From Methylomonas sp. (GTDB lineage Bacteria; Pseudomonadota; Gammaproteobacteria; Methylococcales; Methylomonadaceae), in NCBI GenBank assembly GCA_002928965.1, contig PERU01000001.1, positions 372,001-436,000 of the forward strand: 64,000 bases of DNA, given 5' to 3'. This document shows positions 42,267 to 61,000 of this stretch, piece after piece. The translations under genes were made by a program, and so were the position numbers. Positions within the stretch are counted from its first letter, which is position 1. Each line of letters opens with the position of its first letter. The notes below the pieces were generated by a model. The model saw only the letters and a program-made list of their open reading frames with translations. It did no database searches and was not told the origin of the DNA.

Positions 42267-43394
42267 TTGGAAGAAGATATCAGCATTGATTTACGCATTT
42301 TGCAGAGTCATCTGGATGGCATGCTTAGTCGGGTAAAACATAACAGCCTCACCTTAAAACGTCTGCAAGCGTTTGAAATGCGCCTGCTGGCACTCAGTTC
42401 CCTGACTGAAATGATTGACTTCATTTTGGATGAAACCAAGTTGTTGTTTGATCTGGAGATTGTCAGTCTGTATTTGTTCGACCCTACCAATGACATCGCC
42501 TGTTACCTGGAAAGCGACCATTATCCCTATAAGGATCGGCAGGGCTTTATGCTGGTTGAAAGCGATGCACTGTTCAAAAAGTTTTTTGATTATTCACACA
42601 AACCGCTGCTGGGTATCTATCACCCTGAAAACTATGAACAGTTTTTCCTGGACGGCGATCAAATACCCTCATCCGTGATTCTGGCACCGTTGATACGGCG
42701 TGGAAAATATATAGGCTCTTTGAATTTAGGCAGCCATCGTTCAGATCGGTTTATTCATACGATGGCAACCGATTTCATCGAGCATCTGGCTTCGGTGTTA
42801 AGCATTTCGCTGGAAAATACCCTGAATTTTGAAACCATGCGCCGCACCAGCCTGTTCGACCCATTGACGGGTGTGAATAATCGGCGGTTTTTGGAGCAGC
42901 GCATCAATGAAGAGTTGGACCGAAGCCTGAGAACGCACCAACCTTTGTCCTGTCTGTTTCTGGATATAGACTACTTCAAATGCATTAACGATACGCACGG
43001 TCATCAAGCGGGCGATCAGGTGTTGTCTCAGGTGGCTGGCGCTATAAAAAAACAACTGCGCAGCAACGATGTTTTGTCGCGCTACGGTGGTGAAGAATTT
43101 GTTGCCTTGCTATCCGGCAGTGACGAATCGATTGCTCTGGAAATTGCCGAGAGAATTCGTAGCAGTATCGAAGCGCTGCTGATTCAATTTGGCGGCCAGG
43201 AGATTGCTGTGACCATTTCAATTGGCGCGGCCACGTTTATCCCTGGCTTAAACGCCACAAAAAGTGTTGCCGATACCGCGCGAGAATTGATCAATACCGC
43301 AGATGCCGCCTTATACCAAGCTAAAAACAAGGGCAGAAACAGAGTTGAAAATCGCAGTGGCATTCTCTCAACCCTGGATTTGCAAAAAGCTTGA
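42267..43394 (+). CDS. GGDEF-domain diguanylate cyclase with N-terminal GAF/DUF484-like sensor
   Basis: The 375-residue protein has a coiled N-terminal helix, a GAF/DUF484-like domain at about residues 50-190, and a GGDEF domain: SLFDPLTGVNNRRFLEQ, FLDIDYFKCINDTHGHQAGD and the active-site motif RYGGEEF. It should make cyclic di-GMP. No membrane helices are visible, so the signal is probably cytoplasmic. It starts with TTG 42267 and lies alone. Confidence 0.88.
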   Translation: MEEDISIDLRILQSHLDGMLSRVKHNSLTLKRLQAFEMRLLALSSLTEMIDFILDETKLLFDLEIVSLYLFDPTNDIACYLESDHYPYKDRQGFMLVESDALFKKFFDYSHKPLLGIYHPENYEQFFLDGDQIPSSVILAPLIRRGKYIGSLNLGSHRSDRFIHTMATDFIEHLASVLSISLENTLNFETMRRTSLFDPLTGVNNRRFLEQRINEELDRSLRTHQPLSCLFLDIDYFKCINDTHGHQAGDQVLSQVAGAIKKQLRSNDVLSRYGGEEFVALLSGSDESIALEIAERIRSSIEALLIQFGGQEIAVTISIGAATFIPGLNATKSVADTARELINTADAALYQAKNKGRNRVENRSGILSTLDLQKA

Positions 43395-43623: not shown

Positions 43624-45999
43624 ATGACACAAACACCCAACAACCTAGCTGCCTACATCTGGTCCTTAGCCGACTTGTTACGCGGTGACTTTAAGCAAAG
43701 TCAGTACGGTCGTATCATCTTGCCGTTTACTTTGTTACGCCGCCTTGAATGCGTATTGGCAGACAGCAAAGAAGCGGTGTTAGCGCAGGTTGAAAAAGTA
43801 CAAGCCATGAACGTGTCAGAAGAGGCACAAGAAAAGCTGCTGCTTCGAGCAACCAACGGTTTGTCGTTTTACAGCACCTCCAAAATGGACCTGTCCAAAC
43901 TGGGTGAAGCCGATATCGCCACTAATCTTGAATCTTACATTCAAAGCTTTTCAAAAGACGCGCGGGAGATTTTTGAGCATTTTAAGTTTGTAGAATTTAT
44001 TGGCCAACTCAACGATGCCAATCTGCTCTATAAGATTGTCCAAAAGGTCCGGCAAACGGATTTGAGTCCCAAGGCCATTTCAAATCATGACATGGGCTTG
44101 GTGTTTGAAGAGCTGATTCGACGTTTTGCAGAAAGCTCAAATGAAACCGCTGGCGAACACTTTACCCCGCGCGACATTATCCGCCTCACCACCTCGCTGG
44201 TGTTCATGGAAGATGATGACGCACTGACCAAACCCGGCATTATTCGCACGCTCTATGATGCAACCGGCGGCACCGGTGGCTTTCTCTCCGCAGGCATGGA
44301 ATATGTTCACGAACTCAATCCACACGCCGTGATACGCGCTTACGGCCAAGAACTCAATCCGGAAAGTTATGCCATCTGCAAAGCGGACATGCTGATCAAA
44401 GGACAGGAAGTTAAAAACATCAAGCTCGGCAATACCCTGTCCAATGACCAACTGTATGCCGACAAATTTGACTACATGCTGTGCAATCCGCCCTTTGGTG
44501 TGGACTGGAAAAAGATTGAAACCGACATCAAAGACGAACACACGCTAAAAGGCTTTGACGGTCGTTTTGGGCCCGGTTTACCGCGTGTATCGGACGGTTC
44601 ATTGCTGTTCTTATTGCACCTGATCAGCAAGCTAAGACCGAATGACGGTGACGTACAGGGACGTACTAATGTCGCGGGAGGCTCGACGCCGGGAGCGACC
44701 GGTTCTCGCATCGGCATTATTCTCAACGGCTCACCGCTGTTCACCGGTGGTGCGGGTTCTGGCGAATCGGAAATCCGTCGTTACATCCTGGAAGCGGATT
44801 TATTGGAAGCCATTGTCGCGTTGCCAACCGACATGTTTTACAACACCGGTATCTCGACGTATATCTGGATACTCTCCAATAAAAAACCCGCCCAACGCAA
44901 AGGCAAAGTGCAGTTGATCAACGGCGTCAATTTATACGGCAAAATGCGCAAGTCATTGGGCAGCAAGCGCAACGTCATGGACGATGAAGACATTGCGACT
45001 ATCACCCGCTGCTTTGGTGCTTTTGAAGTGGTGGATACGCGTGAACTGGACAAACCCGCCGAGCAAAAAAGCAATCGCGGCAGACAATCATCAAACCCAA
45101 AATCCGAAGCGGTAAAAACCTTTGCCAGCAAAATTTTTCATACCTACCAATTTGGCTATCGCCGCATCACGATAGAACGCCCCTTGCGCGAGTCGTACCA
45201 ATTTAGCGATGAACGGATAGACAGCTTGCGTTTTGATAGCGGCGCGTTAAACGCTGCCATGCAATGGATTTACGCCGACTATGCGATTGACGACAACTGG
45301 TCGGATGCGCCGGATTGTGAACAGTACGGCGACTTGACCGCGCACCATGAAGCCATTCGCAAGCATTGCAAAACTCACTTTAGCGAACTCAAAGAAAAAC
45401 AGCTCAAAGACCTGTTGGATCGTAACCTGTGGCGGAATCAAAAACAGCTGCTGCTGAAAGCGCGGCAATTGCAGACAGTGATGGGTCTGGAACAGCATGA
45501 CGATATGAACCGGTTTGATGATGCTCTCAATGCGGCTGGTAAAAAAGCCGGTGTGGTTTTGGACGCGAAAGACAAAAAACAGATTAAAGCCGCTGTCAGC
45601 TGGAAAAATCCCGCGGCAGAAAAGGTCATTAAAAAAATCCATAGCGGTAAATTGAACCCCCTCTACGGCCTGTTTGCAGTGGATGGACGCATCATCGAAT
45701 ACCAAGTGGACAGCGATCTGCGTGACAATGAGAACGTGCCGCTTGATCCCAGTCAATCAGTCAGTGCCATTAACGAAGCCTACTTTCTCAAGGAAGTACA
45801 ACCGCATGTGCCGGATGCCTGGATCGATGCCAGCAAGAAAGACGATAAAGACCAGCAAATCGGCATAGTCGGTTATGAAATTCCGTTTAACCGGCATTTT
45901 TACCAATACCAACCACCTAGGGATTTAGTGGAGATCGATGCCGACTTGGATAAAGTCAGCGCCGAGATTATGGCGTTGTTGCGTGAGGTACATTCGTGA
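43624..45999 (+). CDS. hsdM: Type I restriction-modification methyltransferase subunit
   Basis: HsdM methylates adenine in the target sequence set by HsdS and is needed for restriction with HsdR. The 791-residue protein has an HsdM N-terminal helical domain, the SAM motif [14 protein letters not shown], the catalytic NPPFGVDW and a long C-terminal extension (about 280 residues) beyond the usual ~500. An HsdM subfamily of this length is known to accompany HsdR of about 1080 residues, as here. The 3' end is copied at 46717-46767. Confidence 0.93.
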
Positions 46000-46056
46000 A
46001 CAAACCTCTAGCCAAGCGTATGTTCATCCCTTTGAAAATCATCATAGAGGGATGAC

Positions 46057-46590
46057 ATGCACTATCGGCGACTTTATCAACCCGGTGCCCGTTACTTTTT
46101 TACCGCCGTGACCGAAAATAGAGAACCGCTGTTAATCGATCATATTGAACGATTGCGTGCCGCCTTTCGTTTGTGTTTATCACGTTACCCCTTTGAGATT
46201 GATGCAATAGTCGTGTTACCGGAGCATTTACATACGCTATGGCGATTACCGGAAAACGATGCCGATTTCTCTAAACGCTGGATGGTGATTAAACGTAAAT
46301 TTTCAGCAGGCTTGCCAAGCCGGGTTGTCAGTGATTCCAAGACCCAAAAGCGTGAAAAAGGCATTTGGCAGCGACGGTTTTGGGAGCATTACATTCGCGA
46401 TGAAGAGGATTGGCGCCGGCATGTGGATTACATTCATTTTAATCCGGTTAAACATGGATACGTTTCCAAACCGCAGGATTGGCCGCACAGCTCATTTAAC
46501 CAGGCTGTCCGCAAAGGATGGTATGAGCCGGGCATTGTGTTGGATGATCAATTGATCGGGTTAAATCATGAAAACATCGGCAATGAATAG
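46057..46590 (+). CDS. REP-associated tyrosine transposase (RAYT)
   Basis: The 177-residue Y1_Tnp-type protein has the metal-binding histidine pair in VVLPEHLHTLWRLPENDADF and the REP-transposase C-terminal pattern RRHVDYIHFNPVKHGYV. RAYTs are single-copy HUH-like enzymes that bind and cut REP sequences. It is immediately followed by a REP pair (46632-46709), and another is at 47869-47970. Its insertion separates hsdM from the nuclease gene. Confidence 0.9.
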   Translation: MHYRRLYQPGARYFFTAVTENREPLLIDHIERLRAAFRLCLSRYPFEIDAIVVLPEHLHTLWRLPENDADFSKRWMVIKRKFSAGLPSRVVSDSKTQKREKGIWQRRFWEHYIRDEEDWRRHVDYIHFNPVKHGYVSKPQDWPHSSFNQAVRKGWYEPGIVLDDQLIGLNHENIGNE

Positions 46591-46631
46591 AATAAGCAGG
46601 ATGAGCAAAGCACGTACGATGGGCAAAACCC

Positions 46632-46709
46632 GTAGGATGGGCAAAGCGACAGCGTGCCCATCATTTAAACGCCTTGATGGGCACGTCGTACCTCCTTTGC
46701 CCATCCTAC
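46632..46709. repeat. REP pair (BIME-like) after the RAYT gene
   Basis: GTAGGATGGGCAAAG (46632 on) and its complement ending at 46709 (CTTTGCCCATCCTAC) flank GCGTGCCCATCA and TGATGGGCACG, giving two REP units in opposite orientation. The same sequence recurs at 47869-47970 and as a single unit at 49367-49397. Confidence 0.88.
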
Positions 46710-46716
46710 AATGGCT

Positions 46717-46767
46717 GGATAAAGTCAATGCCGAGATTATGGCGCTATTGCGTGAGGTGCCTTGCTA
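46717..46767 (+). pseudogene. Displaced copy of the hsdM 3' end
   Basis: GGATAAAGTCAATGCCGAGA... to TAA 46767 is nearly the same as the last 51 bases of hsdM (45949-45999), including the [15 protein letters not shown] coding stretch. It sits after the RAYT/REP insertion and directly before the nuclease gene. It marks the original hsdM end or an earlier hsdM allele and is not translated as part of a functional protein. Confidence 0.85.
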
Positions 46768-47811
46768 ATGCAAAGCGGCGCGAATTTTATCCAAAACAGT
46801 GAATACAAAAAATGGCTGAAGGATCTTAAGCAAAAGGTATTACACACCCAACTTAAAGCCGCCGTTGCCGTCAATACCACACTAGTACAATTTTACTGGG
46901 AGATGGGTGAAGAGATTATCCGCAGACAAGCGCAATCCAACTGGGGTGATGGCTTTATCCAACAACTCAGCCAGGATTTAATGGCAGAATTTCCTGAAAT
47001 GAAAGGCTTTTCAGCGCGCAATCTCAAGTATATCCGCCAATGGGTTGGGTTTTATACCCGCGCTCCTGCAATTGGGCAACAAGCTGTTGCCCAATTAACC
47101 CAAATCCCTTGGGGCCACCATTTAAAGATAATCGCCCACTGCCAAAGTAGAGCCGAAGCCCTGTATTACGTGCAAAAAACCCAGGAACACGGCTGGAGCC
47201 GCAGCGTATTAACCCACCAAATGCAAAGTGGTTTATGGACTCGCGAAGGTAAAGCGATTACTAACTTTACCGCGACTTTACCCAGTCCCCAATCTGATCT
47301 GGCGCAACAAACCTTAAAAGACTCGTATATTTTTGATTTTCTCACCCTCAGCAAGCAACACAGCCAACGGGAACTAGAACAAGGCTTGATTGAGCATATC
47401 ACCCATTTCCTATTAGAACTGGGCGCGGGTTTTGCCTATATGGGTAAACAGTATCCGGTGCAAGTGGGCGAGCGCGAATTCTTTATCGACTTACTGTTTT
47501 ATCACACCCAACTGCATTGCCATGTGGTGATCGAACTCAAAATCGGCGACTTTGAGCCGGAACATGCCGGTAAACTGAATTTTTACATCAAAGTAATTGA
47601 TGAACAATTACGCGGCGCAGCGGATCAACCCACTATCGGCATACTGCTGTGTAAACACAAAGACAAGCTAGTAGCCGAATATGCGTTGAGTGATATTCAA
47701 AAACCGATTGGTGTCTCGGAATATCAGCTAACCCAATCACTGCCTAAAGACCTGCAATCCAAATTGCCCAGTATTGAAGACATTGAAAATGAATTGAGCG
47801 GTGAGTTATGA
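46768..47811 (+). CDS. DUF1016/YhcG-type PDDEXK nuclease-family protein
   Basis: The 347-residue protein has an N-terminal helical DUF1016 domain (LVQFYWEMGEEIIRRQAQ, GFSARNLKYIRQWVGFY) and a C-terminal PD-(D/E)xK nuclease domain (FIDLLFYHTQLHCHVVIELK with D and ExK). YhcG-like genes often accompany type I restriction loci and are thought to be nucleases. The ATG directly follows the copied hsdM stop. It overlaps the hsdS fragment by four bases. Confidence 0.85.
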   Translation: MQSGANFIQNSEYKKWLKDLKQKVLHTQLKAAVAVNTTLVQFYWEMGEEIIRRQAQSNWGDGFIQQLSQDLMAEFPEMKGFSARNLKYIRQWVGFYTRAPAIGQQAVAQLTQIPWGHHLKIIAHCQSRAEALYYVQKTQEHGWSRSVLTHQMQSGLWTREGKAITNFTATLPSPQSDLAQQTLKDSYIFDFLTLSKQHSQRELEQGLIEHITHFLLELGAGFAYMGKQYPVQVGEREFFIDLLFYHTQLHCHVVIELKIGDFEPEHAGKLNFYIKVIDEQLRGAADQPTIGILLCKHKDKLVAEYALSDIQKPIGVSEYQLTQSLPKDLQSKLPSIEDIENELSGEL

Positions 47812-47860
47812 AATATCAGGCTTATCTTGAATATAAAGACTCTGGGGTTGAATGGTTGGG
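47808..47860 (+). pseudogene. Truncated copy of the hsdS 5' end
   Basis: ATGAAATATCAGGCTTATCT... encodes KYQAYLEYKDSGVEWL and matches the start of hsdS at 48026-48075 with few differences, then runs into REP sequence (GGGCAAAGCACGTAGG). It is an hsdS start cut by the REP insertion; hsdS itself begins again at 48017. Confidence 0.85.
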
Positions 47861-47868
47861 CAAAGCAC

Positions 47869-47970
47869 GTAGGATGGGCAAAGCGGCAGCGTGCCCATCA
47901 ATTATGCGCATAGGCGTTGATGTCACGTCGAACATTGATGGGCACGTCGTACCTCCTTTGCCCATCCTAC
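47869..47970. repeat. Second REP pair, between truncated and complete hsdS starts
   Basis: GTAGGATGGGCAAAG at 47869 and CTTTGCCCATCCTAC ending 47970 are inverted copies of the same REP as at 46632-46709, with TGATGGGCACG and CGTGCCCATCA inside. The central sequence differs from the first pair. Confidence 0.87.
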
Positions 47971-48016
47971 ATCTGGTTTTTTCGTTGGGCGTAACTTTAG
48001 AAAAGGTGTGGCGGTG

Positions 48017-49363
48017 ATGGCGGGAAAATATCAGGCTTATCCTGAATATAAGGATTCTGGGGTTGAGTGGATTGGAGAAATACCAAGCGATTGGGACATG
48101 TGGAAAATTGCCCATGCCTGCCCATATATTGCAAGTGGCACAACCCCAACCTCAGATAGTGATAAGTATTATGGAGGTGAGTATCTATGGGTGACTACAG
48201 GAGAATTACGGGAAAATATTATTTTTGATACCCAGAAAAAAGTTACCGGTAAGGCATTAGTTGATATGCCTACATTGCGATTGCATCCTAAAGGTTCTGT
48301 TTCAATTGCCATGTATGGCGCAACAATAGGTCGCCTTGGGATTTTTGGTAAAGAGGCCACAACCAATCAAGCCTGTTGTGTAATGCCGCCGTCAAAGGTA
48401 CTACATAATAAATACCTGTTTTATTGGCTTTATGCCACTCGAAATGAAATTATTAACTTATCGTCCGGCGGTGGCCAGCCCAATGTAAATCAAGAAAAAA
48501 TCGCTTCTCTTAAAATTAGTGCTCCACATTATGAATTGCAAATAAAAATCGTCAACTTCCTCGACCACGAAACCGCCAAAATAGACACCCTGATTGAAAA
48601 ACAACAACAGCTCATCCAACTGTTAAAAGAAAAACGTCAGGCAGTGATTAGTCATGCTGTGACCAAAGGTTTAAATCCTGATGTGCCTATGCGGGATTCT
48701 GGGGTTGAGTGGCTGGGTGAAGTGCCTGCGCATTGGGAAGTTAAACGAATCAAACACTTTGGGAAAATTATCGGTGGATATGCTTTTAAAAGTAATGATT
48801 TTTGTGATTCTGGAATTAAAGCCATAAAAATATCAAACGTATCGCATCTCTTTTTTGAATGGAGTGATAGTTCATTTCTACCTGAAAACTTTTTATTTGA
48901 GAAAAGAGAATATGTTCCTCCAAAAGATTCTTTGATATTTGCTATGACAAGACCAATTATTAGCGGTGGCGTTAAAGTTGCGAAATTTGACTTGGATGAA
49001 GAATGTTTAGTTAATCAAAGAGTGGGGTTTCTAAAGCCATCACATAAGATTAATCAAGATTATTTAATGTATGTTGCTCAATCAAACAGTTTTTTCTGTG
49101 CTTTTGACAACAATATAACAGCCACAAATCAACCAAATATATCTTCAGAAGGTATTGAAGATATAAGATTTTCTTGTCCTAATTTATCAGAACAGGCAGA
49201 AATCGTGGGTTACATTAGTGCTATTTCAAAGTTGTTTGAAAATACTCTCAACAAGGTAAATGAACAAATTGAACTCATGCAAGAACGTCGCACCGCCCTA
49301 ATTTCCGCCGCCGTCACCGGCAAAATCGATGTCAGAAACTGGGTCGCTCCTGCGCATCCCTAG
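48017..49363 (+). CDS. hsdS: Type I restriction-modification specificity subunit
   Basis: HsdS recognises the bipartite DNA target of the complex. The 448-residue protein has two target-recognition domains (about residues 15-170 and 230-390), each followed by a conserved helical repeat (LDHETAKIDTLIEKQQQLIQ and INEQIELMQERRTALISAA-type). The segments VEWIGEIPSDW and VEWLGEVPAHW start each half. ATG 48017 is chosen because KYQAYPEYKDSG is the family start. A REP unit follows the stop. Confidence 0.92.
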   Translation: MAGKYQAYPEYKDSGVEWIGEIPSDWDMWKIAHACPYIASGTTPTSDSDKYYGGEYLWVTTGELRENIIFDTQKKVTGKALVDMPTLRLHPKGSVSIAMYGATIGRLGIFGKEATTNQACCVMPPSKVLHNKYLFYWLYATRNEIINLSSGGGQPNVNQEKIASLKISAPHYELQIKIVNFLDHETAKIDTLIEKQQQLIQLLKEKRQAVISHAVTKGLNPDVPMRDSGVEWLGEVPAHWEVKRIKHFGKIIGGYAFKSNDFCDSGIKAIKISNVSHLFFEWSDSSFLPENFLFEKREYVPPKDSLIFAMTRPIISGGVKVAKFDLDEECLVNQRVGFLKPSHKINQDYLMYVAQSNSFFCAFDNNITATNQPNISSEGIEDIRFSCPNLSEQAEIVGYISAISKLFENTLNKVNEQIELMQERRTALISAAVTGKIDVRNWVAPAHP

Positions 49364-49366
49364 CTG

Positions 49367-49397
49367 GTAGGATGGGCAAAGCACAGCGTGCCCATCA
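49367..49397. repeat. Single REP unit after hsdS
   Basis: GTAGGATGGGCAAAGCACAG followed by CGTGCCCATCA is the same REP as in the two upstream pairs. The following ~100 bases to 49495 form an open frame (LKGKRAKFAKQVIEHLANAK) in phase with hsdS but without a start, possibly the end of a lost gene. Confidence 0.8.
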
Positions 49398-49500
49398 AAC
49401 TGAAGGGCAAACGGGCGAAATTTGCTAAGCAGGTAATAGAGCATCTGGCAAATGCCAAGCTTCGTATGGACAATAAAAATGAGTTAGGACAATAGACGCT

Positions 49501-49791
49501 ATGAATCGTCAACAAGCACTAGAAACGCTAAGTAAGCTTAAACCTCAATTAGTGGAACGCTTTGGAGTCACCCGATTGGCTCTGTTTGGTTCGACGGTAC
49601 GCGATGAGGCAAAACCGGGCAGCGATATTGATGTTGTGGTGGCTTTTGATAGCCCCGCCACCTCTGCAAAATACTTTGGCGTGCAATTCTATTTAGAAGA
49701 TGAACTGGGTGCGCCGGTTGATCTGGTGACCGAAAATGCCATTCGCCCAGAGTTGCGAACATTTATAGAACAGGAAGCGATTAATGTATGA
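49501..49791 (+). CDS. MNT-type nucleotidyltransferase inside the hsd operon
   Basis: The 96-residue protein has the motif ALFGSTVRDEAKPGSDIDVV, the GSx-DxD pattern of minimal nucleotidyltransferases. Unlike the pair at 12926 there is no HEPN partner next to it. It overlaps the hsdR start by eight bases and so is translated with the restriction subunit. An antitoxin-like or regulatory role is possible; unknown. Confidence 0.83.
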   Translation: MNRQQALETLSKLKPQLVERFGVTRLALFGSTVRDEAKPGSDIDVVVAFDSPATSAKYFGVQFYLEDELGAPVDLVTENAIRPELRTFIEQEAINV

Positions 49792-52700
49792 ACGGGAAAG
49801 CGTCTTTCAAAACGACATGATTCAGCAGTTGCTCGCTAACGGCTGGCTGTTGGGTAAATCTGAACACTACAACCGCGAACTGGCGTTATATCCGGACGAT
49901 TTGCTGGGTTTTGTCAAAGAAACCCAAGATACCCAATGGCAAAAATTCTGTTCGCTTTACCCGAACAATCCAGAGCACAAGTTTTTGGAACGTGTTGCCA
50001 GTCAGTTGAATAAATCCGATCCCAATGCTGCCAATAAAGAAATGCGCACTTTTGGCACCTTGGGCGTGTTACGTCATGAACTGCGCGATAGAGGCACGCG
50101 CTTCAGCTTGTGTCAGTTTAAGCCTGAGCATGATTTAAACCCGGAGACCTTGGCGCGTTATCAAAAAAATCGGTGTCGTGTCGTACCTGAGTTGGTGTAC
50201 AGCCCTTGGGCTTCTGCACAGCAATGTGCGGAAACAGGCTCAAAAGCCAAAGCCTGGCGGATTGACGTGGTGTTATTTGTCAACGGTCTGCCAGTCGCGA
50301 CCTTAGAGCTAAAGTCCGAATTCAAACAAGCGGTACACAACGCGATTAAGCAATACAAAACCACCCGTCATGCGGTTGATCCCATCACCAAGAAGCCAGA
50401 GCCTTTATTAACCTTTAAGCGCGGTGCATTGGTTCACTTTGCCGTGAGTCAATATGAAGTCTACATGGCCACCCGCCTGGAAGGTGCCAATACGGTTTTT
50501 CTGCCGTTTAACAAAGGTACAAAAGATGGCGGTGCGGGTAACGATAGCCCAGACGATGTCAATCAATATGCGACCGATTACTTGTGGAATGAGGTGTTAG
50601 TACCGGCCAATTTGTTAAACATTTTGGCGCGTTTTGTTCATTTGCAGATTGAGGAGAAAGAGGACTGGGAAGGCCGTAAGTACAAGAAAGAAGCGCTGAT
50701 CTTTCCGCGTTATCACCAGTGGGATGTGGTCAACAAACTGCTGTCTGCGGCGCGTAGTGAAGGCTCAGGCCACAAATACCTGATTCAACACAGCGCCGGT
50801 TCCGGTAAATCCAATTCCATTGCCTGGACGGCGCATCAACTCTCGTCGCTGTATGATGCCAACGGCCATAAACAGTTTGATTCCGTGATCATTGTGACCG
50901 ATAGAACCGTGCTGGATGATCAGTTGCAAGACACCATCTATCAGTTTGAACATGTGGATGGCGTGGTCGGTCGCATCAACAACAAAGAAGGCGATGGTTC
51001 AAAGTCTGAAAAATTGGCGGCTGCGCTGGAAAAATCGCAACCCATTATCATCGTGACGATTCAGACTTTTCCGTATGTGTTGCGCGCAATCGAAAACAGC
51101 GTCAGTTTAAAAGAGCGTTGTTATGCCATCATCGCCGATGAAGCACATTCGTCGCAAAGCGGCTCTACCGCGCGGCAACTCAAAGAAGTGCTGATGATCG
51201 AGGCGGCGGAAGAGTGCGAAGAAGAAGTGACGACCGAGGATATTTTGGATGCGGCCATAGCGTCGCGTCGCGCATCCAAAAACGTCAGTTATTTTGCGTT
51301 TACCGCCACGCCCAAAACCAAAACCTTAGAGCTGTTTGGTCGCTGTCCTGATCCAAACCAAGCCCCTTCAAAAGACAATCTGCCTGCTGCCTATCATGTC
51401 TACAGCATGCGTCAGGCGATTGAAGAAGGCTTTATTCTGGATGTGTTGAAGAACTATACCAATTACAAGGTCGCTTATAACTTGGCGTTAAAAATCCAAG
51501 GCACTGATCAGGAAGTTGAAAGCAAAAAAGCCAAGGTCAAACTCAATCAATGGGTGCGATTACACGACTACAACATTTCGCAAAAAGTGCAGATTATTGT
51601 TGAGCACTTTAAAGATAATATCATGGGCTTATTGGGTGGACAGGCCAAGGCCATGGTTGTCACCCGTTCGCGCAAAGAGGCGGTGCGCTATAAGCTGTGC
51701 TTTGATAAATATATTAAGGATAAAGGTTACCAAAACATTCATGCGCTGGTCGCGTTTTCAGGTGAGGTGGAATTTAACAATAAAGACCCGAACACCGATG
51801 GCTTGATAGGTGAAAAGTTTAGCGAAAGCGCCATGAACCCCAATCTCAAAGGCCGCGATATGCGCAAAGCCTTTGATACCGATGATTATCAGGTCATGCT
51901 GGTCGCCAACAAATTCCAGACCGGATTTGATCAACCCAAACTGTGCGCCATGTACGTGGATAAAAAACTGGGTGGTGTGGAATGTGTGCAGACCTTGTCA
52001 CGACTGAATCGGAACTATCCCGGCAAAGCGGAAACCGGCACGTTTATTTTGGACTTTTTTAACGATCCGGACAATATTCTGCAAGCGTTTCAGCCGTATT
52101 ACCAAACGGCTGAACTGGCTGATGTATCGGATCCTGACTTAATCTTTGATCTTTACGACAAGCTGCGAGCCGCGAATGTCTTTACCTGGCAGGAAGTGGA
52201 ACAGTTTTGTGACGCGTTTTTTGTGAAAAGCAAAAGCAATGCGGCACTGGCCAATATTTGCAAACCGGCGGTTGATCGCTGGCAAAAGCGTTATAAATCG
52301 GCGGTTGATGCGTTCAAGCAAGCCAAAGACATGTTTGACCGCACCAAGAAGACCGCCGACCCGGTATTGATCGCCAATGCGGAAAACTGCTTCAAACAAT
52401 GCAAGCATGAAAAAGATGCCCTGGAAATTTTTAAAAAGGATTTAGGTTCGTTCGTGCGGTTTTATGAGTTTATGTCGCAGATTGTAGATTATGACGATAA
52501 GGCACTGGAAAAACTCAGTCTCTATGCCCGCAACCTTCGTCCGCTGCTGCGCGAAACCTTTATGGAAGAAGACAGCATCGATTTGGATAACGTGACCTTG
52601 AGTCATTACCGCCTGTCCATCATCCGGAAGCAAGACCTGAAACTCAAAGAAGATGCACCGGACTATAAGCTGGTGCCTGGGGATGATTTAGGAACAGCAA

Positions 52701-53029
52701 AACCAAGAGACAGAAAAGAAGAACGCCTGTCGCAGATTATTAGCCGCTTGAACGAGCTGTTTATTACCGACAACCTGACAGAGAAAGACCTGGTCAATTA
52801 CGCTTACACCATCAGGGACAAAGTCAGTGAAAACGCGGTTGTCATGAATCAGATTGCTAATAACAGCGCTGAGCAAGCGATGCTGGGCGATTTTGGCAAG
52901 GCGATTGACGATGCCATCATCGATAGCAGTGAAGCACACCAAAATCAGATGATGCAGCTTTTGTCCGATCCCGCTAAATCGGCGGCGTTTGCCAAGGTGG
53001 TGTTTGAGTTGTTGAAAGCGGATCAATAA
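49784..53029 (+). CDS. hsdR: Type I restriction endonuclease subunit
   Basis: HsdR translocates and cuts DNA bound by HsdMS. The 1081-residue protein has an N-terminal PD-(D/E)xK nuclease domain (WRIDVVLFVNGLPVATLELKS), a SF2 helicase with Walker A QHSAGSGKSNS, DEAH box IIADEAHSSQSG, TFTATPKTKT, and helicase motifs in KFQTGFDQPKLCAMYVDKK and QTLSRLNRNYPGK. The rest is the C-terminal coupling region. The locus (hsdM, hsdS, hsdR) appears complete. Confidence 0.93.
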   Translation: MYERESVFQNDMIQQLLANGWLLGKSEHYNRELALYPDDLLGFVKETQDTQWQKFCSLYPNNPEHKFLERVASQLNKSDPNAANKEMRTFGTLGVLRHELRDRGTRFSLCQFKPEHDLNPETLARYQKNRCRVVPELVYSPWASAQQCAETGSKAKAWRIDVVLFVNGLPVATLELKSEFKQAVHNAIKQYKTTRHAVDPITKKPEPLLTFKRGALVHFAVSQYEVYMATRLEGANTVFLPFNKGTKDGGAGNDSPDDVNQYATDYLWNEVLVPANLLNILARFVHLQIEEKEDWEGRKYKKEALIFPRYHQWDVVNKLLSAARSEGSGHKYLIQHSAGSGKSNSIAWTAHQLSSLYDANGHKQFDSVIIVTDRTVLDDQLQDTIYQFEHVDGVVGRINNKEGDGSKSEKLAAALEKSQPIIIVTIQTFPYVLRAIENSVSLKERCYAIIADEAHSSQSGSTARQLKEVLMIEAAEECEEEVTTEDILDAAIASRRASKNVSYFAFTATPKTKTLELFGRCPDPNQAPSKDNLPAAYHVYSMRQAIEEGFILDVLKNYTNYKVAYNLALKIQGTDQEVESKKAKVKLNQWVRLHDYNISQKVQIIVEHFKDNIMGLLGGQAKAMVVTRSRKEAVRYKLCFDKYIKDKGYQNIHALVAFSGEVEFNNKDPNTDGLIGEKFSESAMNPNLKGRDMRKAFDTDDYQVMLVANKFQTGFDQPKLCAMYVDKKLGGVECVQTLSRLNRNYPGKAETGTFILDFFNDPDNILQAFQPYYQTAELADVSDPDLIFDLYDKLRAANVFTWQEVEQFCDAFFVKSKSNAALANICKPAVDRWQKRYKSAVDAFKQAKDMFDRTKKTADPVLIANAENCFKQCKHEKDALEIFKKDLGSFVRFYEFMSQIVDYDDKALEKLSLYARNLRPLLRETFMEEDSIDLDNVTLSHYRLSIIRKQDLKLKEDAPDYKLVPGDDLGTAKPRDRKEERLSQIISRLNELFITDNLTEKDLVNYAYTIRDKVSENAVVMNQIANNSAEQAMLGDFGKAIDDAIIDSSEAHQNQMMQLLSDPAKSAAFAKVVFELLKADQ

Positions 53030-53532: not shown

Positions 53533-54930
53533 GTGGGGAAAATACCCTACTTGTTTAGGCGAAACAACGTCTATTACTTTAGAATTCGCATACCCATTGA
53601 GCTTCAAGAGTCCCTTCAAGCAAAGGCGATCGTACGGAGCCTAAAAACGGAAAATCGTCACGAAGCCACACCTCTTGCACTTCAACTCGCTGCAAACTTT
53701 GCAGCTGCTCTCTACGATCTAAAGTCAGGCAGAAGTAATCAGATCAGCATGTCATCGCTGATTGCTCAAGTCCCTGAACAACGCGCCATCACCACTATTG
53801 CCTTTACCCAGCCCACTCCAATACTGCCTAAAGCGCCATTGCTATCGGTTGTAGTAGCTGACTTTTTACAACGATACGATCCTAAGAATAAAGCCACGCT
53901 GACCAAGCTAAAATCCACCTTACCGATATTTATTGAACTGGTCGGAGATAAGCCTATCACTAACATCCTGCAAGCAGATGTAAATAACTATTTTGATCAG
54001 GTTCAAAAGCTACCCATCAGGCATGATGCAAAAATGTTTCGTGGCATGTCCTTAAAAAAGATTATAGCCACTCATACTGGCCGTTGTATTGCGGAAGGTA
54101 CATTCAGAAGCACCTATCGTGCTAGCGTCAGCTTGTTGCTTAATTGGGCGTATGTACATTACAAAGATCAAGGATTTCCGAGTCTAAGCGTGAACGGAGC
54201 GGTCTATCGTGGTGATCGTTCTCACGGCATCAACAAGCAACGTGCCTTAACGCAAGACGAGATTAAATTGCTGTTTACTCATTCGCTGATGCGCAAGTAC
54301 GCTGCTGATGCGAGTAAAGCACATTATTGTTGGTTGCCGTTGATTGGTCTTTTTACCGGAGCACGAATTAACGAAGTCTGTCAGCTCAACCCTTTTACCG
54401 ACATTCAACAGGATCAAGCAACCAGCATTTGGTACTTCCATTTTACCGATGAAAACGAAGCAGCAGACGGCGTCTCAAAAAGCATCAAAACCAATTCATC
54501 GCATCGTATTGTCCCCATACACTCCAAGCTAATTGCCTTGGGCTTTTTAGATTACGTTGAACGGATCAAAGGCCAAAATGACAAGCATCTATTTCCAGCC
54601 TGGAAACCTAATCACGGCAAAGCCTCTGCGCGAGTATCAAAGTGGTTTATTCGGTATCTTGGCAAGATTGGCCTCAGAGATAAAACCGAAGGCGCACGCT
54701 TAAGCGGGTTTCATTGTTTCCGTCATACCTTCATCACCTATGGCATACAACACAAAATTGCCGGTACGTTTGCCATTACGGGTCACGAAACCGATGTAGT
54801 GGATGGACTAGGCAAAATATCATCCGTCGCCAAAGGTTACTGGACGCAAGCTATCACTGACAACATTGTTGAAAAGCAAGCAACGATTGAACGGTTTGAT
54901 TTTGGAGATTTTTTTGTTAGTCCTGTATAA
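53533..54930 (+). CDS. int: Tyrosine-type site-specific integrase
   Basis: The 465-residue protein has an N-terminal segment (PYLFRRNNVYYFRIRIPIEL) typical of phage-like integrases that use tRNA genes, a SAM-like middle domain, and the catalytic domain: R in FTGARINEVCQL, HxxR in GFHCFRHTFIT, GHE in AITGHETDVV and a C-terminal tyrosine in SVAKGYWTQA. Start GTG 53533. It lies downstream of and parallel to the tRNA-Ser-like sequence, consistent with integration at that tRNA. Confidence 0.9.
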   Translation: MGKIPYLFRRNNVYYFRIRIPIELQESLQAKAIVRSLKTENRHEATPLALQLAANFAAALYDLKSGRSNQISMSSLIAQVPEQRAITTIAFTQPTPILPKAPLLSVVVADFLQRYDPKNKATLTKLKSTLPIFIELVGDKPITNILQADVNNYFDQVQKLPIRHDAKMFRGMSLKKIIATHTGRCIAEGTFRSTYRASVSLLLNWAYVHYKDQGFPSLSVNGAVYRGDRSHGINKQRALTQDEIKLLFTHSLMRKYAADASKAHYCWLPLIGLFTGARINEVCQLNPFTDIQQDQATSIWYFHFTDENEAADGVSKSIKTNSSHRIVPIHSKLIALGFLDYVERIKGQNDKHLFPAWKPNHGKASARVSKWFIRYLGKIGLRDKTEGARLSGFHCFRHTFITYGIQHKIAGTFAITGHETDVVDGLGKISSVAKGYWTQAITDNIVEKQATIERFDFGDFFVSPV

Positions 54931-55021: not shown

Positions 55022-58000
55022 ATGTCAACTAAAGTATATTTTACAAAGTATACTAGCTTTCAAAATCCAATATCAAAGTTCTATTCTATAAATAATGGGA
55101 GAATAGAAAAGGAATTCGGACTGCCTCTTTATAAAGGCAAAGCAGAGCGAGTAAGTATAAACTTTGAGGATTTCCCTGACGAATTAAATAGTGCAAAACG
55201 ACGTCAAGCATTTGGTTATGGACTTTACGATACAAAATTTCCAGATGAAGTTGATATTGTTGTTACTGGTAAAGAAGAGCCAGAACAAAACGTGATTTCA
55301 AGAAGCAGCAAATTTTTTAAATATCGTCAGCTACCCGGTATTCTGATGATAGATCACGATACTGACGAATATGGAAAGGTTTTCACACCAGATGAGTTAT
55401 TAGAATTATTAGTTAGCATAGATCCTGAAATAGCTCATTCCGCAAAGATTATCAGAGGGTCCGTATCTGCTGGCGTTCATCTTAAAAACAAAAAACCCAT
55501 AAAGGGATCAGGATTTCATATTTATATTCCTGTGAAGAATGCAAGCAACTTGAAGGAGTACGGAGAATTACTATATAAATATTTATGGCTTAAAGGGCAT
55601 GGTTATGTAAAACCATCTAGTAATGGCTCACCACTTTACCGAGCACCTATAGATGGTGTGGTTTTTAGAGGTGAACGTATAGATATTGTCGGAAAACCAT
55701 CACTGCTTAATAAAGATGACCTCGTATACAAACAACCAAAAATTAATCATTGTGTTGGTAAGTTTCTTGATACTAGCAAATTAAGGCCACTTTCAAAAGA
55801 AGAAAATGAAAGGCTAGAAGAAATAAGAGCATCAGCAAAAGAAAAAGTAAAACACATTCTGAGAAAAACTAGAGCTAAATGGAAGAAACAAAAAATTGAG
55901 GAGATAATGTATGAATTTGGCATCACAAAGGAACAAGCAAAAAAGTTAGTAGAAGATATTTTAAAACATGAAGGTACAATTCATGGTGAATGGCCACTCT
56001 ACTTTGATAACGGTAGTATTGTTTCAGTCGTAAAGTTATTAGAGAACCCTGAGAAATATGATGGTTTAACTTTAGCAGACCCCATTGACGGGTTAGCAGA
56101 TAGAAAAAGAGGTAAAGCAAAGTTTTGGTGGAATAATGGAAATCCAATAATCATAAGTCTATCTCATGGTATTGAGAAAATATACAATTTATCAAAAGAC
56201 AGAAAAAAGCAATACAAGGAAGGTGTGGAACCTTATTATGAGCGTCCTAAATATATTTCAAGGGAAGAAGCCCAGAAACAAATGAGAGAAGTTGTTTCTG
56301 AATGGATGAATAATTCAAATGACCATTTTGCAATTACCGCTCCAGCTGGCATTGGCAAAACTACAGCGATAGTTGAAGAGGTAGCAAAATATGCTGAACA
56401 TCATTTGGTTGAAATATATGTACCTAGACATGACTTAGCTAACGAAATTAGAGAAAACATTCTAAAAATAAATACAAACCTGAATGTGACGGTAATTCGC
56501 GGCAGAGCATATCGAGATGAAAAAAACCAAAACGACTTACCACTTTGTAAAAAACACGAGCTAATTGACTCTATTGCTGGATATGGATATAACATTTACG
56601 AAGATGTCTGTATGACATGTCCTTTTGTAAGTGGCGATATGCAATGTGATTATCTTAAGCAATATTCAAATAATTCCCAAGTCCGCATATATACCCATAC
56701 GCATTTAGCGCTCACTCGTAAGCTTGATACCGACCTTCCAAAAAAAGCAATAGTAGACGAACGATTCTTTACCGATTTGATTGAAGTAAATAAGACAAGA
56801 ATTCGTCACATTGAGCATTATGTTGACAACAAGTATGGACTTAAAGACGTCATTTGTAATGCTCTACAATACGATAAACCACTACTCAGCGAAATAAGAG
56901 AGCATTTCCCTGATAATCTAAATCTTGTTTTCAGCAGAGCCCAAAAAAAACTATCAGAGAACAAACTTCCAGATGTAGATAGTAATACAGATCCTGAAAC
57001 CATATTAACGCAGATTAAAAATAACAAGATCAGAACAACTCAGTTGTTATCTGTGATGCTTAACCAACTTCAGTCAGAAACTGATATGTTTCCAGAGCGG
57101 CAAAAATCTCTTACTGTCAGAAGCATTGAAGATGAAGTGGTCGTCGTTAATCGCAAAACCATAAACCGCTTCCATACAAAATATTCAAAAACTCCTGTGC
57201 TATGTATTGACGCAGACTATAGGCAGCAAATCGCAAAAATATTTTTTCATGGTATAAAGAATTTTAGAATAGATGTTGAGAGAAATGCGCACGTAACACA
57301 AATTTTAACCACAACGAATGCGAAATCACGCGGCATCCCTAGAAAGAATGCAAAAGATATTGAATCAGATAAACAAGCTAAAAAAAATTACATTAAAAAT
57401 CTAAATAAGATCATAGAAAATATATATACAGATTATGGTCCGTATTTGTTGATTAGCTACCAATACTTCGTTGGTAACAAAAAGAATGATATTCTGCCTC
57501 TTCTAAACACACATAAGGATTGTGAAAAAATTCATTTTGGTGGTCTGCGGGGCATAGATAAGTATAAACATTTTGATACTGTCATCGTCATTGGTAGAAA
57601 TCAAATACCTCTACATGAGGTTGAATCACAGGCAGCCGCACTATGGTGGGATAGTCAGAAGGAATTAGTATTAACTGGAAAGCCATTTTTTGAATGTCGT
57701 GGTCATCTCATTCGTGATGGAAAAAAATGGGGAGCAGACGTAATGATATGCAAGGACGCACGTGCCCAATTAGTCCAGGAATTACAACGAGAATGTGAAA
57801 CTTTACAAGGCATAGATCGTGTTAGACTAATTCATGCTAAAAACAAAAAAAATGTCTTCATATTATGCAATCTGCCCTTGGACATAACGGTTGATCATAT
57901 AACAACTCAAAAGGAGTTAATAAAATGGAAATCAGTTATTGAAAAGGCATTATTAAGTACCGATAATGGTGTACTGCCCCTAAGTGCGGAATATCTAGCG

Positions 58001-58408
58001 AAACACTTTAGTTATTTATTCAGTTCAGAAAGTAAAGTAAAACGTGAGATTGAACGTGAAAGTCTTTCCGAGACAATTGAATACCTAAAGGCTTCTAAAA
58101 AACATTTGGTATTCAACAATAAAGATTACTACCTATATACTTACAAACTGATAGATGCTGAAGGAAAAGGTAAACAGGGGAAACCTCTTAAAGCTTTAGC
58201 TCCGCAAAAAATGACGAGCAATCAAGTAAGGAAAAGTTTAGGCCGTATCTTTTCAATGGATATTGAGATTGTAGATTCCACAATGCTTGGTTTAATGGAT
58301 ATTAAGCCTAATATTTCAGAAACTGATGATTATCAGGAACAATACGACAGAAGTGATAAACACTACGACAGCCAACTTGATGTGTATTACATCACTTTAG
58401 AAGAATAA
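55022..58408 (+). CDS. Large protein with primase-polymerase-like and P-loop helicase-like regions (novel)
   Basis: The 1128-residue, AT-rich gene encodes an N-terminal region with archaeo-eukaryotic-primase-type motifs: hDhD in ILMIDHDTDE (Asp 111 and 113), SxH in GSGFHIYIPV (His 166) and a third acid in RIDIVG (Asp 221). A DPIDG...KAKFWW...SHG stretch (352-383) resembles phage primase-helicase linkers. A P-loop APAGIGKTTA (440-449), a Cys cluster (C509, C530, C533, C542) and VDERF (578-582, Walker B-like) suggest an SF2-type helicase. No known family is recognised as a whole. Probable replication protein of the integrative element. Confidence 0.7.
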   Translation: MSTKVYFTKYTSFQNPISKFYSINNGRIEKEFGLPLYKGKAERVSINFEDFPDELNSAKRRQAFGYGLYDTKFPDEVDIVVTGKEEPEQNVISRSSKFFKYRQLPGILMIDHDTDEYGKVFTPDELLELLVSIDPEIAHSAKIIRGSVSAGVHLKNKKPIKGSGFHIYIPVKNASNLKEYGELLYKYLWLKGHGYVKPSSNGSPLYRAPIDGVVFRGERIDIVGKPSLLNKDDLVYKQPKINHCVGKFLDTSKLRPLSKEENERLEEIRASAKEKVKHILRKTRAKWKKQKIEEIMYEFGITKEQAKKLVEDILKHEGTIHGEWPLYFDNGSIVSVVKLLENPEKYDGLTLADPIDGLADRKRGKAKFWWNNGNPIIISLSHGIEKIYNLSKDRKKQYKEGVEPYYERPKYISREEAQKQMREVVSEWMNNSNDHFAITAPAGIGKTTAIVEEVAKYAEHHLVEIYVPRHDLANEIRENILKINTNLNVTVIRGRAYRDEKNQNDLPLCKKHELIDSIAGYGYNIYEDVCMTCPFVSGDMQCDYLKQYSNNSQVRIYTHTHLALTRKLDTDLPKKAIVDERFFTDLIEVNKTRIRHIEHYVDNKYGLKDVICNALQYDKPLLSEIREHFPDNLNLVFSRAQKKLSENKLPDVDSNTDPETILTQIKNNKIRTTQLLSVMLNQLQSETDMFPERQKSLTVRSIEDEVVVVNRKTINRFHTKYSKTPVLCIDADYRQQIAKIFFHGIKNFRIDVERNAHVTQILTTTNAKSRGIPRKNAKDIESDKQAKKNYIKNLNKIIENIYTDYGPYLLISYQYFVGNKKNDILPLLNTHKDCEKIHFGGLRGIDKYKHFDTVIVIGRNQIPLHEVESQAAALWWDSQKELVLTGKPFFECRGHLIRDGKKWGADVMICKDARAQLVQELQRECETLQGIDRVRLIHAKNKKNVFILCNLPLDITVDHITTQKELIKWKSVIEKALLSTDNGVLPLSAEYLAKHFSYLFSSESKVKREIERESLSETIEYLKASKKHLVFNNKDYYLYTYKLIDAEGKGKQGKPLKALAPQKMTSNQVRKSLGRIFSMDIEIVDSTMLGLMDIKPNISETDDYQEQYDRSDKHYDSQLDVYYITLEE

Positions 58409-58773
58409 CTAAAATACTGCGCAACCCTATATTTATGCATCTTGATTATTAAGTTCAGAAAGCTATATAGAATCCTAATAGAAAAGTGAACTTAATAATT
58501 GCTTAGGTATAGGGTCACGCAAATAGTAGTGATTTACGAGTCTCGAGCTCGAGACTGCTAACAGTTAAAAGTTCCAGTCCAGATTGAAGTCTATGAGTAG
58601 TTGCCCATTTATATTATTTAGACTAGTAGCAAACTCACTAGCTTGGTGCTTCACTTGATAAGTAACATAATAGCATTGTGTTACTTACTATCTCCTTGAA
58701 TTTATTGACTAAATCACCTTAAAGCTATACCTTATGTAACAGATTTAACATATCACAAAATCAAGTTACATAT
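58409..58773. other. Gene-free region with multiple inverted repeats upstream of the short recombinase
   Basis: The AT-rich stretch contains ATTATTAAGTTCA (58445-58457) and its exact complement (58487-58499), the 18-base palindrome AGTCTCGAGCTCGAGACT (58539-58556), TAAGTAACA/TGTTACTTA (58659-58687), and TATGTAAC/GTTACATA (58733-58740 and 58765-58772) ending just before the recombinase ATG. Four GTTAC cores suggest binding sites for the recombinase or a regulator. No gene is seen. Confidence 0.65.
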
Positions 58774-59325
58774 ATGAACACAGTCAACGCTGCTAGCAAG
58801 TCAGAAATTGACTTGATCCACACGCTACTAGAGAACAAGTTTGGGCAAATCTATGCTGATATTTGGAAAGTCGGAGTCAATCTGTCGCTCAGGATTAGCG
58901 ATTTGCTCTCACTGCAATACTCACAGCTCAATATTCAAGACAGATCGTTACAACTCACTGAGCAGAAGATAGGCAAACAGAAGCTGATTCGTCTAAATTC
59001 TGCTGCAATCTCTGTTATTGAACGCAGACGACAAGAGCACCCTTCAGATTGTTGGTTGTTTCAAGTACACAGTCATAGAGCCAAGGACAAACCTATTAGT
59101 CGTGTGTCTGTTAGTCGCGTGTTCAAAGATGCTGGGGACATGGTCAATTTGACGATTAACACCCACTCTATGCGCAAGAGTCGCGGCATGGCAATGTACA
59201 AGGACGGGGTTCCTGTTGAGAAGATTGCTAAAGTGCTGAATCACAGCAACACGACTTCAACGCTTCGGTATCTCGGCATTACGAACGAAGAGGTTTTGCA
59301 GACCTACGACGATTACGAGTTATGA
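58774..59325 (+). CDS. Short tyrosine recombinase, catalytic domain only
   Basis: The 183-residue protein consists only of the catalytic domain of tyrosine recombinases: Arg40 in LSLRISDLLSL, HxxR at 131-134 (HSMRKSRG), His157 in VLNHSNTT and the nucleophile Tyr166 in STLRYLGIT. The size is similar to FimB/FimE-type invertases. It lacks a core-binding domain. A decayed copy of its last 29 codons lies at 60914-61000. It might invert or excise DNA in the element; this is inference. Confidence 0.88.
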   Translation: MNTVNAASKSEIDLIHTLLENKFGQIYADIWKVGVNLSLRISDLLSLQYSQLNIQDRSLQLTEQKIGKQKLIRLNSAAISVIERRRQEHPSDCWLFQVHSHRAKDKPISRVSVSRVFKDAGDMVNLTINTHSMRKSRGMAMYKDGVPVEKIAKVLNHSNTTSTLRYLGITNEEVLQTYDDYEL

Positions 59326-59348: not shown

Positions 59349-59963
59349 TTAATAGATAAATCCACTATCATCTTCGTATGGATAAGGGGAAGTTTCATTA
59401 TCTGCATCATCCCAATCGGCATATACTGATTTTGCCTTCGGCTTGACTTTGCCGCTGTTTTTATAAAAAAGACTAATTTCTTCTGTAACTGTCTTAAGTG
59501 CTGGGGCGGGATATGTCACCATTCTGGTTATATGGCTTCTTCTGCGCCACCTTGTGTGTTTTTTTTCTTTGTTCTTTAGCTCTTGAACTTTGGCGTCCTT
59601 TTTCATTTTTGCATGAGAGTAGATAGGCCCCCAATCTTCTTTGTGTGCTTTATTTTTTATCGCTAATAACACTTCAACACTCGGTTGGTCTGAGCTTATA
59701 TTTAAATACGATTCAACTAAAGCGGCGTTGACAAGATCGTTAATTAGACTCTTATTTAACTTTGTTTTAGCTCTTAGGTGCTTAAAAAATTCTTGTCTAG
59801 TTGTGTTCATAGCCCTATGGGCATTATGATGAACTAATTGAAAAATATCCGCTCTCAATTCGTAGAATCGGTTATCAAATATTTCTAACACATCTATCAC
59901 ATCATCCAAGAATTCAGATGCTTGTTCAAAACCCTTAGGCCCACCACGATAAATTGTAATCAT
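59349..59963 (-). CDS. Hypothetical protein with basic linker
   Basis: The 204-residue protein has a helical N-terminal part (ASEFLDDVIDVLEIFDNRFY), a lysine/arginine-rich linker (KNKEKKHTRWRRRSHITRM) and an acidic C-terminus (DWDDADNETSPYPYEDDS). I do not recognise the family. It lies 46 bases downstream of the TOPRIM-like gene on the same strand, so the two form a unit. A replication or regulatory role in the element is possible. Confidence 0.6.
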   Translation of the reverse strand: MITIYRGGPKGFEQASEFLDDVIDVLEIFDNRFYELRADIFQLVHHNAHRAMNTTRQEFFKHLRAKTKLNKSLINDLVNAALVESYLNISSDQPSVEVLLAIKNKAHKEDWGPIYSHAKMKKDAKVQELKNKEKKHTRWRRRSHITRMVTYPAPALKTVTEEISLFYKNSGKVKPKAKSVYADWDDADNETSPYPYEDDSGFIY

Positions 59964-60009: not shown

Positions 60010-60756
60010 TCAATTATCTTCCTCATTAAAATCATCTGTAAATACCTCTGCGTCATTTAATAGATCGTTAATTACATTGGGTAACAACTTATCCGGATTA
60101 CTGTCCTTCAAGAATAAATCACGCTTCAAAAAGTCTGATACAGGCTTATTGCCTTCCCACAATCCTGGAAATGATTTTTGTAACCAATCTAATGGGTCAT
60201 CATAATCATTTAGGTCAGGTAAAGTAACAATTTTAAGCTTAGGTGGGTTTTGCATGCGGATGAGCCGAGTATAGACATCTTGAATAAATACCATTCCTTT
60301 TTCATCATTAGATGCAATTAAATAAACGACTTTTAAACCGTCTAATGGTGTCCAATCGGTATCCTCTACAAAATCAAAACCATAAACAGGTGAAACGCAA
60401 CATATTCCAAGTTTAGAAAATGCATTTGCTGATCGTTCGTTTTCAACAATGACCACGCGAATTGAGTCTTGTCGCGTTAGTAGTTTATTCAAACGATACA
60501 ACGGAAATTTTTTAAGTCGTATATCCTTTTTCGTATGCCACATTCCAGAATATTTTTTATCGTTGATATACGATTCATATTCAAAAAATAAAACCCTGCG
60601 ATTTTTTTCCAAGCTACCATAACACCCCACACAACCAACAATACCGTTATCCTTATTATAATAAGGATATGTTTTTAGCAGAGGCTTATTATTATATTCA
60701 TTAGGAATATCTTCGTGATTATCTGGAATGTTAATGTAATCTTCTGGTATTGTCAT
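60010..60756 (-). CDS. TOPRIM-like primase-associated protein
   Basis: The 248-residue protein has a TOPRIM-like core: conserved glutamate in IRVVIVENERSANAFSKLG, an acidic loop in VVYLIASNDEKGMVF (S-N-D-E-K-G in place of the usual D-x-D), and KIVTLPDLNDYDDPLDWLQ, the pattern of phage primase TOPRIM domains. An N-terminal zinc-ribbon-like pair (CVGCYGS) is also present. It could be a primase accessory for the element. The replaced DxD means activity is uncertain. Confidence 0.65.
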   Translation of the reverse strand: MTIPEDYINIPDNHEDIPNEYNNKPLLKTYPYYNKDNGIVGCVGCYGSLEKNRRVLFFEYESYINDKKYSGMWHTKKDIRLKKFPLYRLNKLLTRQDSIRVVIVENERSANAFSKLGICCVSPVYGFDFVEDTDWTPLDGLKVVYLIASNDEKGMVFIQDVYTRLIRMQNPPKLKIVTLPDLNDYDDPLDWLQKSFPGLWEGNKPVSDFLKRDLFLKDSNPDKLLPNVINDLLNDAEVFTDDFNEEDN

Positions 60757-60913
60757 CGTTGTTCTAAAATATACAATTTAGATATGAATCTAAAACAAAG
60801 CTTGCTATGCTTCAATTGAATAAAATAGGTTTTGCCAATCCAATCAAACTAATTGCACGATATTTTTGCTGAACAGCTCATTTTTGGTTCTGATTTCAAA
60901 TTTCCGTATGCCA

Positions 60914-61000
60914 AATCACAGCGACACGACTTCAACGCTACGTTGTATTGGCATTACCACAGAAGAAGTGCTAAAAACGTATGATGACTACATGTTGTAG
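60914..61000 (+). pseudogene. Decayed 3' end of a short tyrosine recombinase
   Basis: The frame NHSDTTSTLRCIGITTEEVL ends at TAG 61000 and matches the final 28 residues of the recombinase at 58774, with the nucleophile Tyr replaced by Cys. The upstream part is missing. DNA divergence is mostly at third positions, so it is an old paralogue, not a recent copy. It bounds the TOPRIM cassette on its right. Confidence 0.82.

Follow-up and report, generated by a model that had tools for sequence, protein, structure and literature searches.

In gp4 of phage T7, a primase and a 5'->3' motor are combined in one chain, which consists of a TOPRIM domain plus a hexameric RecA-type motor. Fusions of archaeo-eukaryotic primase (AEP) domains with helicases, including superfamily 2 (SF2)-like helicases related to UL9, are already known from mobile elements; the PrimPol-PV1 and All3500 fusions, compared here by their description, likewise join an AEP to varied helicases, some of them SF2-like (sections of PMC5862659). 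The plasmid replication proteins pRN1 ORF904 and pIT3 Rep also carry an N-terminal AEP and a C-terminal helicase (sections of PMC4538821). Here we analyzed a gene in a 64,000-nucleotide stretch of Methylomonas sp., a probable methane oxidizer (contig PERU01000001.1, positions 372,001 to 436,000; hereafter the window), whose protein, by computed domain identities, joins an N-terminal AEP primase to a C-terminal XPD/DinG-type SF2 helicase. In comparison with this protein, pRN1 ORF904 and pIT3 Rep belong to another AEP family and another helicase class. A helicase and an AEP are also found, as here, in one replication protein in GP55 of lactococcal phage 1706, which, unlike the window protein, contains an additional family B DNA polymerase (sections of PMC12205980).

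The open reading frame (ORF) begins with ATG and has no internal stop codon, and a search of its own genome with the protein gave one match at E 0.001. The gene and its two halves are as follows.

55022..58408, + strand: primase-helicase fusion gene (ORF of 1128 aa; a 46% identical relative spans residues 5-1126)
55022..56206, + strand: AEP-type primase half, residues 1-395 (D111, D113, G164-F165-H166, D211)
56219..58405, + strand: XPD/DinG-like SF2 helicase half, residues 400-1128 (ResIII match; AlphaFold2 model, VIA-align rows 1-24)

An earlier note, made from the letters of this DNA, had proposed a primase-helicase fusion with three ordered primase motifs followed by a P-loop, a Cys cluster and a Walker B-like VDERF. 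This proposal is supported by a match of the N-terminal half to the DNA primase profile phrog_16593 (residues 4-359, E 9.8e-26, 91.3 bits), by a ResIII match in the C-terminal half and by invariant motif residues in both. Primase motif I (hhhDhD/E) is present as ILMIDHD (D111 and D113, the former correctly numbered in the note), and motif III (hD/E), the third acidic motif, as I210-D211 within RAPID. D111, D113 and D211 are invariant in 22/22 aligned AEP rows; since these rows are only 23-45% identical to the window protein, the motifs are unlikely to be due to chance. The alignment excludes L018, L062 and L069 (the latter two among the 19 loci of one scan) and loci from two other scans, some of which lie on identical contigs.

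One observation weighs against the motif set of the note. The SxH motif that the note had also listed is found as SGFH (G164-F165-H166), but its His is not a family constant: the residue 166 column of alignment A10 contains H in 12/22 rows and R in 10/22, while the three aspartates stay fixed. Among solved-structure sequences, phmmer with the whole fusion protein returned two ribosomal LX chains and nothing else, and the best match of the AEP profile was C962R (E 1.5). Foldseek of the full-length model against PDB gave no row below E 0.001, the top row being AsfvPrimPol (E 0.032, probability 0.09).

To describe the helicase half, we used a set of 22 rows drawn from plasmids, genomes and viral contigs. 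Excluded from it were L047 and L043 (truncated or split in their records), L106 (a fragment), L107 (a second match in the gene of L103) and L070 (judged by eye to duplicate L049); the later-found rows L149-L151, L161 and L162 also lie outside it. The rows are not fully independent, since the helicase parts of L018 and L063 share 80% identity. The features of this half are listed below.

56342..56362, + strand: Walker A/motif I, PAGIGKT (K446 in 22/22 rows)
56546..56647, + strand: four-Cys segment C509, C530, C533 and C542 between motifs Ia and II, a candidate [4Fe-4S] site
56753..56767, + strand: Walker B/motif II, VDERF (D579 and E580, both in 22/22 rows)
56789..57181, + strand: largely helical insert separating motif II from motif III (residues 590-720), located where XPD/DinG proteins carry the Arch domain (AlphaFold2 secondary structure)
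57209..57217, + strand: motif III-like DAD (D730 in 22/22 rows)
57806..57826, + strand: motif VI, QxxxRxR (Q929 in 21/22, R933 in 22/22 and R935 in 21/22 rows)

K446 of the P-loop is correctly numbered in the note. D730 forms an invariant Asp column inside a DAD/DGT-like motif, and L050 is the row that lacks Q929 and R935. XPD-type helicases have motif VI as QxxGRxIR, a form also seen in the DinG-type proteins compared here, and the QxxxRxR of the window protein differs from it. The insert between motifs II and III is about 130 residues long and mostly below pLDDT 55 in the AlphaFold2 model. The only Pfam model above its cut-off in this half is ResIII (24.7 bits against 22.5). With the helicase profile, 119 solved-structure sequences were matched (best E 0.00057); the best 60 of the 119 are mostly SF1/SF2 helicases and other P-loop enzymes, aligned around the P-loop. 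In a fold search of the kind suggested in the note, the structural matches of the AlphaFold2 model are headed by XPD/DinG-type helicases, indicating an XPD-type motor fold. The curated DinG/XPD sequence models fail (DEAD_2 and Helicase_C_2 were not listed, and NF008729 reached 12.3 bits against a cut-off of 598), so we call the helicase XPD-like rather than a member of the XPD/DinG family.

The four cysteines are nearly invariant (C509, C530 and C542 in 22/22 rows, C533 in 21/22); in the exceptional row, L101, a Cys lies a few residues off. By eye, L161 and L162 also have four cysteines. Profile comparison aligned C530, C533 and C542 with the cluster of DinG-type proteins. The last Cys pair is CP-x7-C in the window protein, with the Pro in 14/22 rows, and several relatives have CP-x4-C, which is exactly the spacing of the DinG-type proteins compared. 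The segment is predicted, from its sequence, to be most likely a [4Fe-4S] site. Motor domain 1 of E. coli DinG carries both the CCCC segment and the Arch as inserts (sections of PMC11981726). The Rad3-type proteins EcDinG, YoaA, XPD and CasDinG likewise have an SF2 motor in which a four-Cys segment separates motif Ia from motif II and an insert separates motif II from motif III (sections of PMC11981726 and PMC6300356).

Another possible reading is that the AEP is fused to an SF2 helicase of the UL9/origin-binding-protein type (Herpes_ori_bp), with a zinc-type Cys insert and 3'->5' unwinding, the polarity of UL9. This class was considered first because phage KB12-38 has a protein (L022) in which a relative of the same AEP precedes a Herpes_ori_bp helicase (PF02399, E 1.2e-9). 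All3500 primases also occur with SF2-like domains that are partly related to UL9 (sections of PMC5862659), and among viral fold matches a Caudovirales "replication origin-binding protein" ranks fourth (E 2.0e-27), which the AEP half may explain. However, PF02399 was not listed for the window protein up to E 10, and a search of genome G000 with it gave nothing at E 0.001; when six UL9-like sequences were compared by profile, the alignment covered no more than 46-49 columns near the P-loop (scores 47.5 and 52.2); in L022, no four-Cys segment separates motif Ia from motif II; and the fold list is headed by XPD/DinG-type rows. The UL9 class was demoted on the PF02399 absence, the short profile alignment and the fold list. 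By eye, however, motifs III and VI look like those of KB12-38-type phage proteins; for this reason the UL9 class is kept as the leading alternative, although we regard it as unlikely.

Analysis of relatives with Pfam revealed that the primase and helicase halves swap partners. The helicase is joined to TOPRIM in L041 and L019, to Prim-Pol in L049, L102 and L160 (the full protein of L105, which is not an AEP-fusion row) and to RepB_primase in L103; a PriCT_2 protein was found in L100. No primase match was obtained for L042, L045 and L048, and L044 and L104 had zero Pfam matches of any kind. Two helicase relatives on viral contigs, L108 and L109, were inspected by reading their sequences. The AEP half, in turn, is combined with DUF3987 (L052), D5_N/DUF5906 (L054), DUF5906 (L056), a VapE-like domain (L023) or, as mentioned above, Herpes_ori_bp; in one Pfam scan batch, six of ten AEP-half proteins had no match.

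Phylogenetic analyses of the two halves were also carried out. In the AEP tree, grouping the four rows that have an XPD-like helicase into one clade was rejected (p-AU 0.006). In the helicase tree, which has many long end branches, the window protein and L024 are separate from L018, L063 and L064, and well-supported branches force two changes. Taken together, the trees suggest that the pairing of an AEP with an XPD-like helicase probably had two or more origins or underwent reshuffling. A further relative of 1202 aa (L161:887-4495, genome G933) appears by eye to have two tandem AEP-like domains before a four-Cys helicase; its Pfam scan gave no primase match.

We then examined the genomic context of the fusion gene. 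Three neighboring features are listed here.

53533..54930, + strand: tyrosine integrase with a DUF6538 N-terminal domain (PF20172, 62 bits against a cut-off of 27; PHROG 1 integrase, E 1.4e-20)
58409..58773, no strand: inverted-repeat stretch of 365 bp without a listed ORF (repeats 58445-58457/58487-58499 and 58659-58671/58675-58687)
58774..59325, + strand: small Xer-like tyrosine recombinase of 183 aa (Phage_integrase, 78.3 bits against a cut-off of 27.1)

The integrase gene ends 91 bp before the fusion gene, and its own Phage_integrase score is 16.7 bits, under the cut-off of 27.1. The 365-bp stretch contains two centres of strong inverted repeats, a number attained in 1/200 dinucleotide shuffles, and one of nine segments of the same length within the fusion gene holds one inverted repeat; the stretch may serve as origin, terminator or recombinase site. 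The closest plasmid relative of the 183-aa recombinase is 42.5% identical. GC content is 34-39% at 55-61 kb versus 41.5-53% in the other listed kilobases of 36-64 kb, except for 39.7% at 48-49 kb. This setting looks mobile. Neither a tRNA within the window nor an att-like repeat in 52.9-62.3 kb was recognized; direct repeats in that interval did not exceed 88 nt (74%). Synteny (blastn) with genome G014 of the same genus stops at 43369, just ahead of a type I restriction locus (43624-53029) that contains HsdM, a Y1-type transposase, a YhcG/DUF1016 nuclease, HsdS, an NTP_transf_2 nucleotidyltransferase and HsdR. No empty site was found among blastn rows >150 bp, as G014, G016, G008 (2.7 kb only) and G009 match nothing beyond 43369.

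Several other observations were made in this region. The 3' end of the recombinase gene (59234-59321) is repeated about 1.7 kb further on, at 60909-60996, where there is no listed ORF (this is the 88-nt repeat mentioned above); the copy may be what is left of another recombinase gene, or a mark of an integration event. In the low-GC block, a 204-aa ORF (59349-59963, - strand) had no Pfam or NCBIfam match above cut-off, its best PHROG match being at E 0.024. Residues 16-214 of a 248-aa ORF (60010-60756, - strand) match parts of longer open frames (about 714-769 aa) found in several relatives, as well as TOPRIM-type primase families (PRK07078, E 3.1e-8, under cut-off; phrog_239, E 7e-9); this ORF may perhaps be a piece of a truncated TOPRIM primase.

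The restriction locus next to the fusion gene is one point in favor of a second alternative, namely that this primase-helicase works in repair or damage tolerance, restarting stalled forks, and is carried on a genomic island, rather than being the replication protein of an element. Characterized DinG-like relatives also serve repair, fork rescue or immunity (sections of PMC11981726). On the other hand, both halves have relatives on plasmids, and the AEP half on phages. Some part of the fusion protein was matched in 35/72,556 plasmid records (E 0.01) and 19/50,697 phage records, the latter chiefly through the AEP half: aligned parts lie within residues 3-391, except in KB12-38, where the alignment extends to 454. 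Some of the plasmids are small and have few listed genes. A TOPRIM plus four-Cys-helicase protein (L041:946-4170) is the sole listed gene of a 4170-bp plasmid record, possibly a very small primase-helicase replicon, and L020 is a 6547-bp plasmid with four listed genes. Moreover, full-length matches are rare; among 200 genomes, they were found in the organism's own genome and in G069, a genome of the same family, and in no others. A repair role is, in our view, improbable.

The helicase profile is similarly sparse in distribution. At E 1e-6, it matched 8/398 genomes of a phylum sample (one of the eight weakly and partially) and 4/369 of a class sample (two of the four weakly and partially), the own genome being included in both. 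Viral contigs yielded no relative when searched with the whole protein, with A1, with A3 or with L041; A4 and A8 found one locus and two loci there, respectively.

It is highly improbable that the fusion gene has decayed or lost its activity as part of an old island: its neighbors look remnant-like (the recombinase repeat and the short TOPRIM-like ORF), but the 1128-aa frame is open, its motifs are present and the 46% identical relative aligns over nearly its entire length.

We favor, as a fairly probable and economical reading, that a mobile element encodes here, in one protein, a self-contained module for its replication after excision, in which an AEP primase is tethered to an XPD/DinG-type four-Cys helicase. 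XPD-family helicases move 5'->3' (sections of PMC6300356). If this polarity is valid here, the motor would run on the lagging-strand template beside its own primase. The following order of events may be envisaged. The neighboring tyrosine recombinase or recombinases would excise the element; the protein would load at the element's origin, which might conceivably be the inverted-repeat stretch just downstream; the helicase would travel 5'->3' on the lagging-strand template like XPD/DinG, opening the duplex; and the primase, as its AEP motifs suggest, would make primers on the same strand for a host polymerase. With this predicted polarity, the fusion would act like the 5'->3' phage primase-helicases such as T7 gp4, from unrelated parts.

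No description of a primase fused to a DinG/XPD-type helicase was recognized in the open-licence literature, among the matches listed. The main text on AEP-helicase fusions (PMC5862659) contains no occurrence of DinG or XPD, and that of a DinG review (PMC11981726) no occurrence of "primase".

The known roles of XPD/DinG helicases lie in repair, transcription and CRISPR interference. If plasmids and islands carry a form coupled to a primase, an iron-sulfur (FeS) motor would take the place of a replicative helicase, and such a role in a one-protein replication starter would be an unusual use of an XPD-like motor. More tentatively, mobile elements of Proteobacteria might use an undescribed family of XPD-type FeS replicative helicases, repeatedly fused to primases of the AEP, TOPRIM, Prim-Pol or RepB type; a repair-type motor moving 5'->3' along the lagging strand would then be the principal helicase at the forks of small replicons, perhaps with redox regulation. 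One helicase lineage with several primase types is a natural experiment on the minimal needs of an initiator, and the 4.2-kb single-gene plasmid record suggests a very small system for studying primase-helicase coupling and the gating of replication by the cluster.
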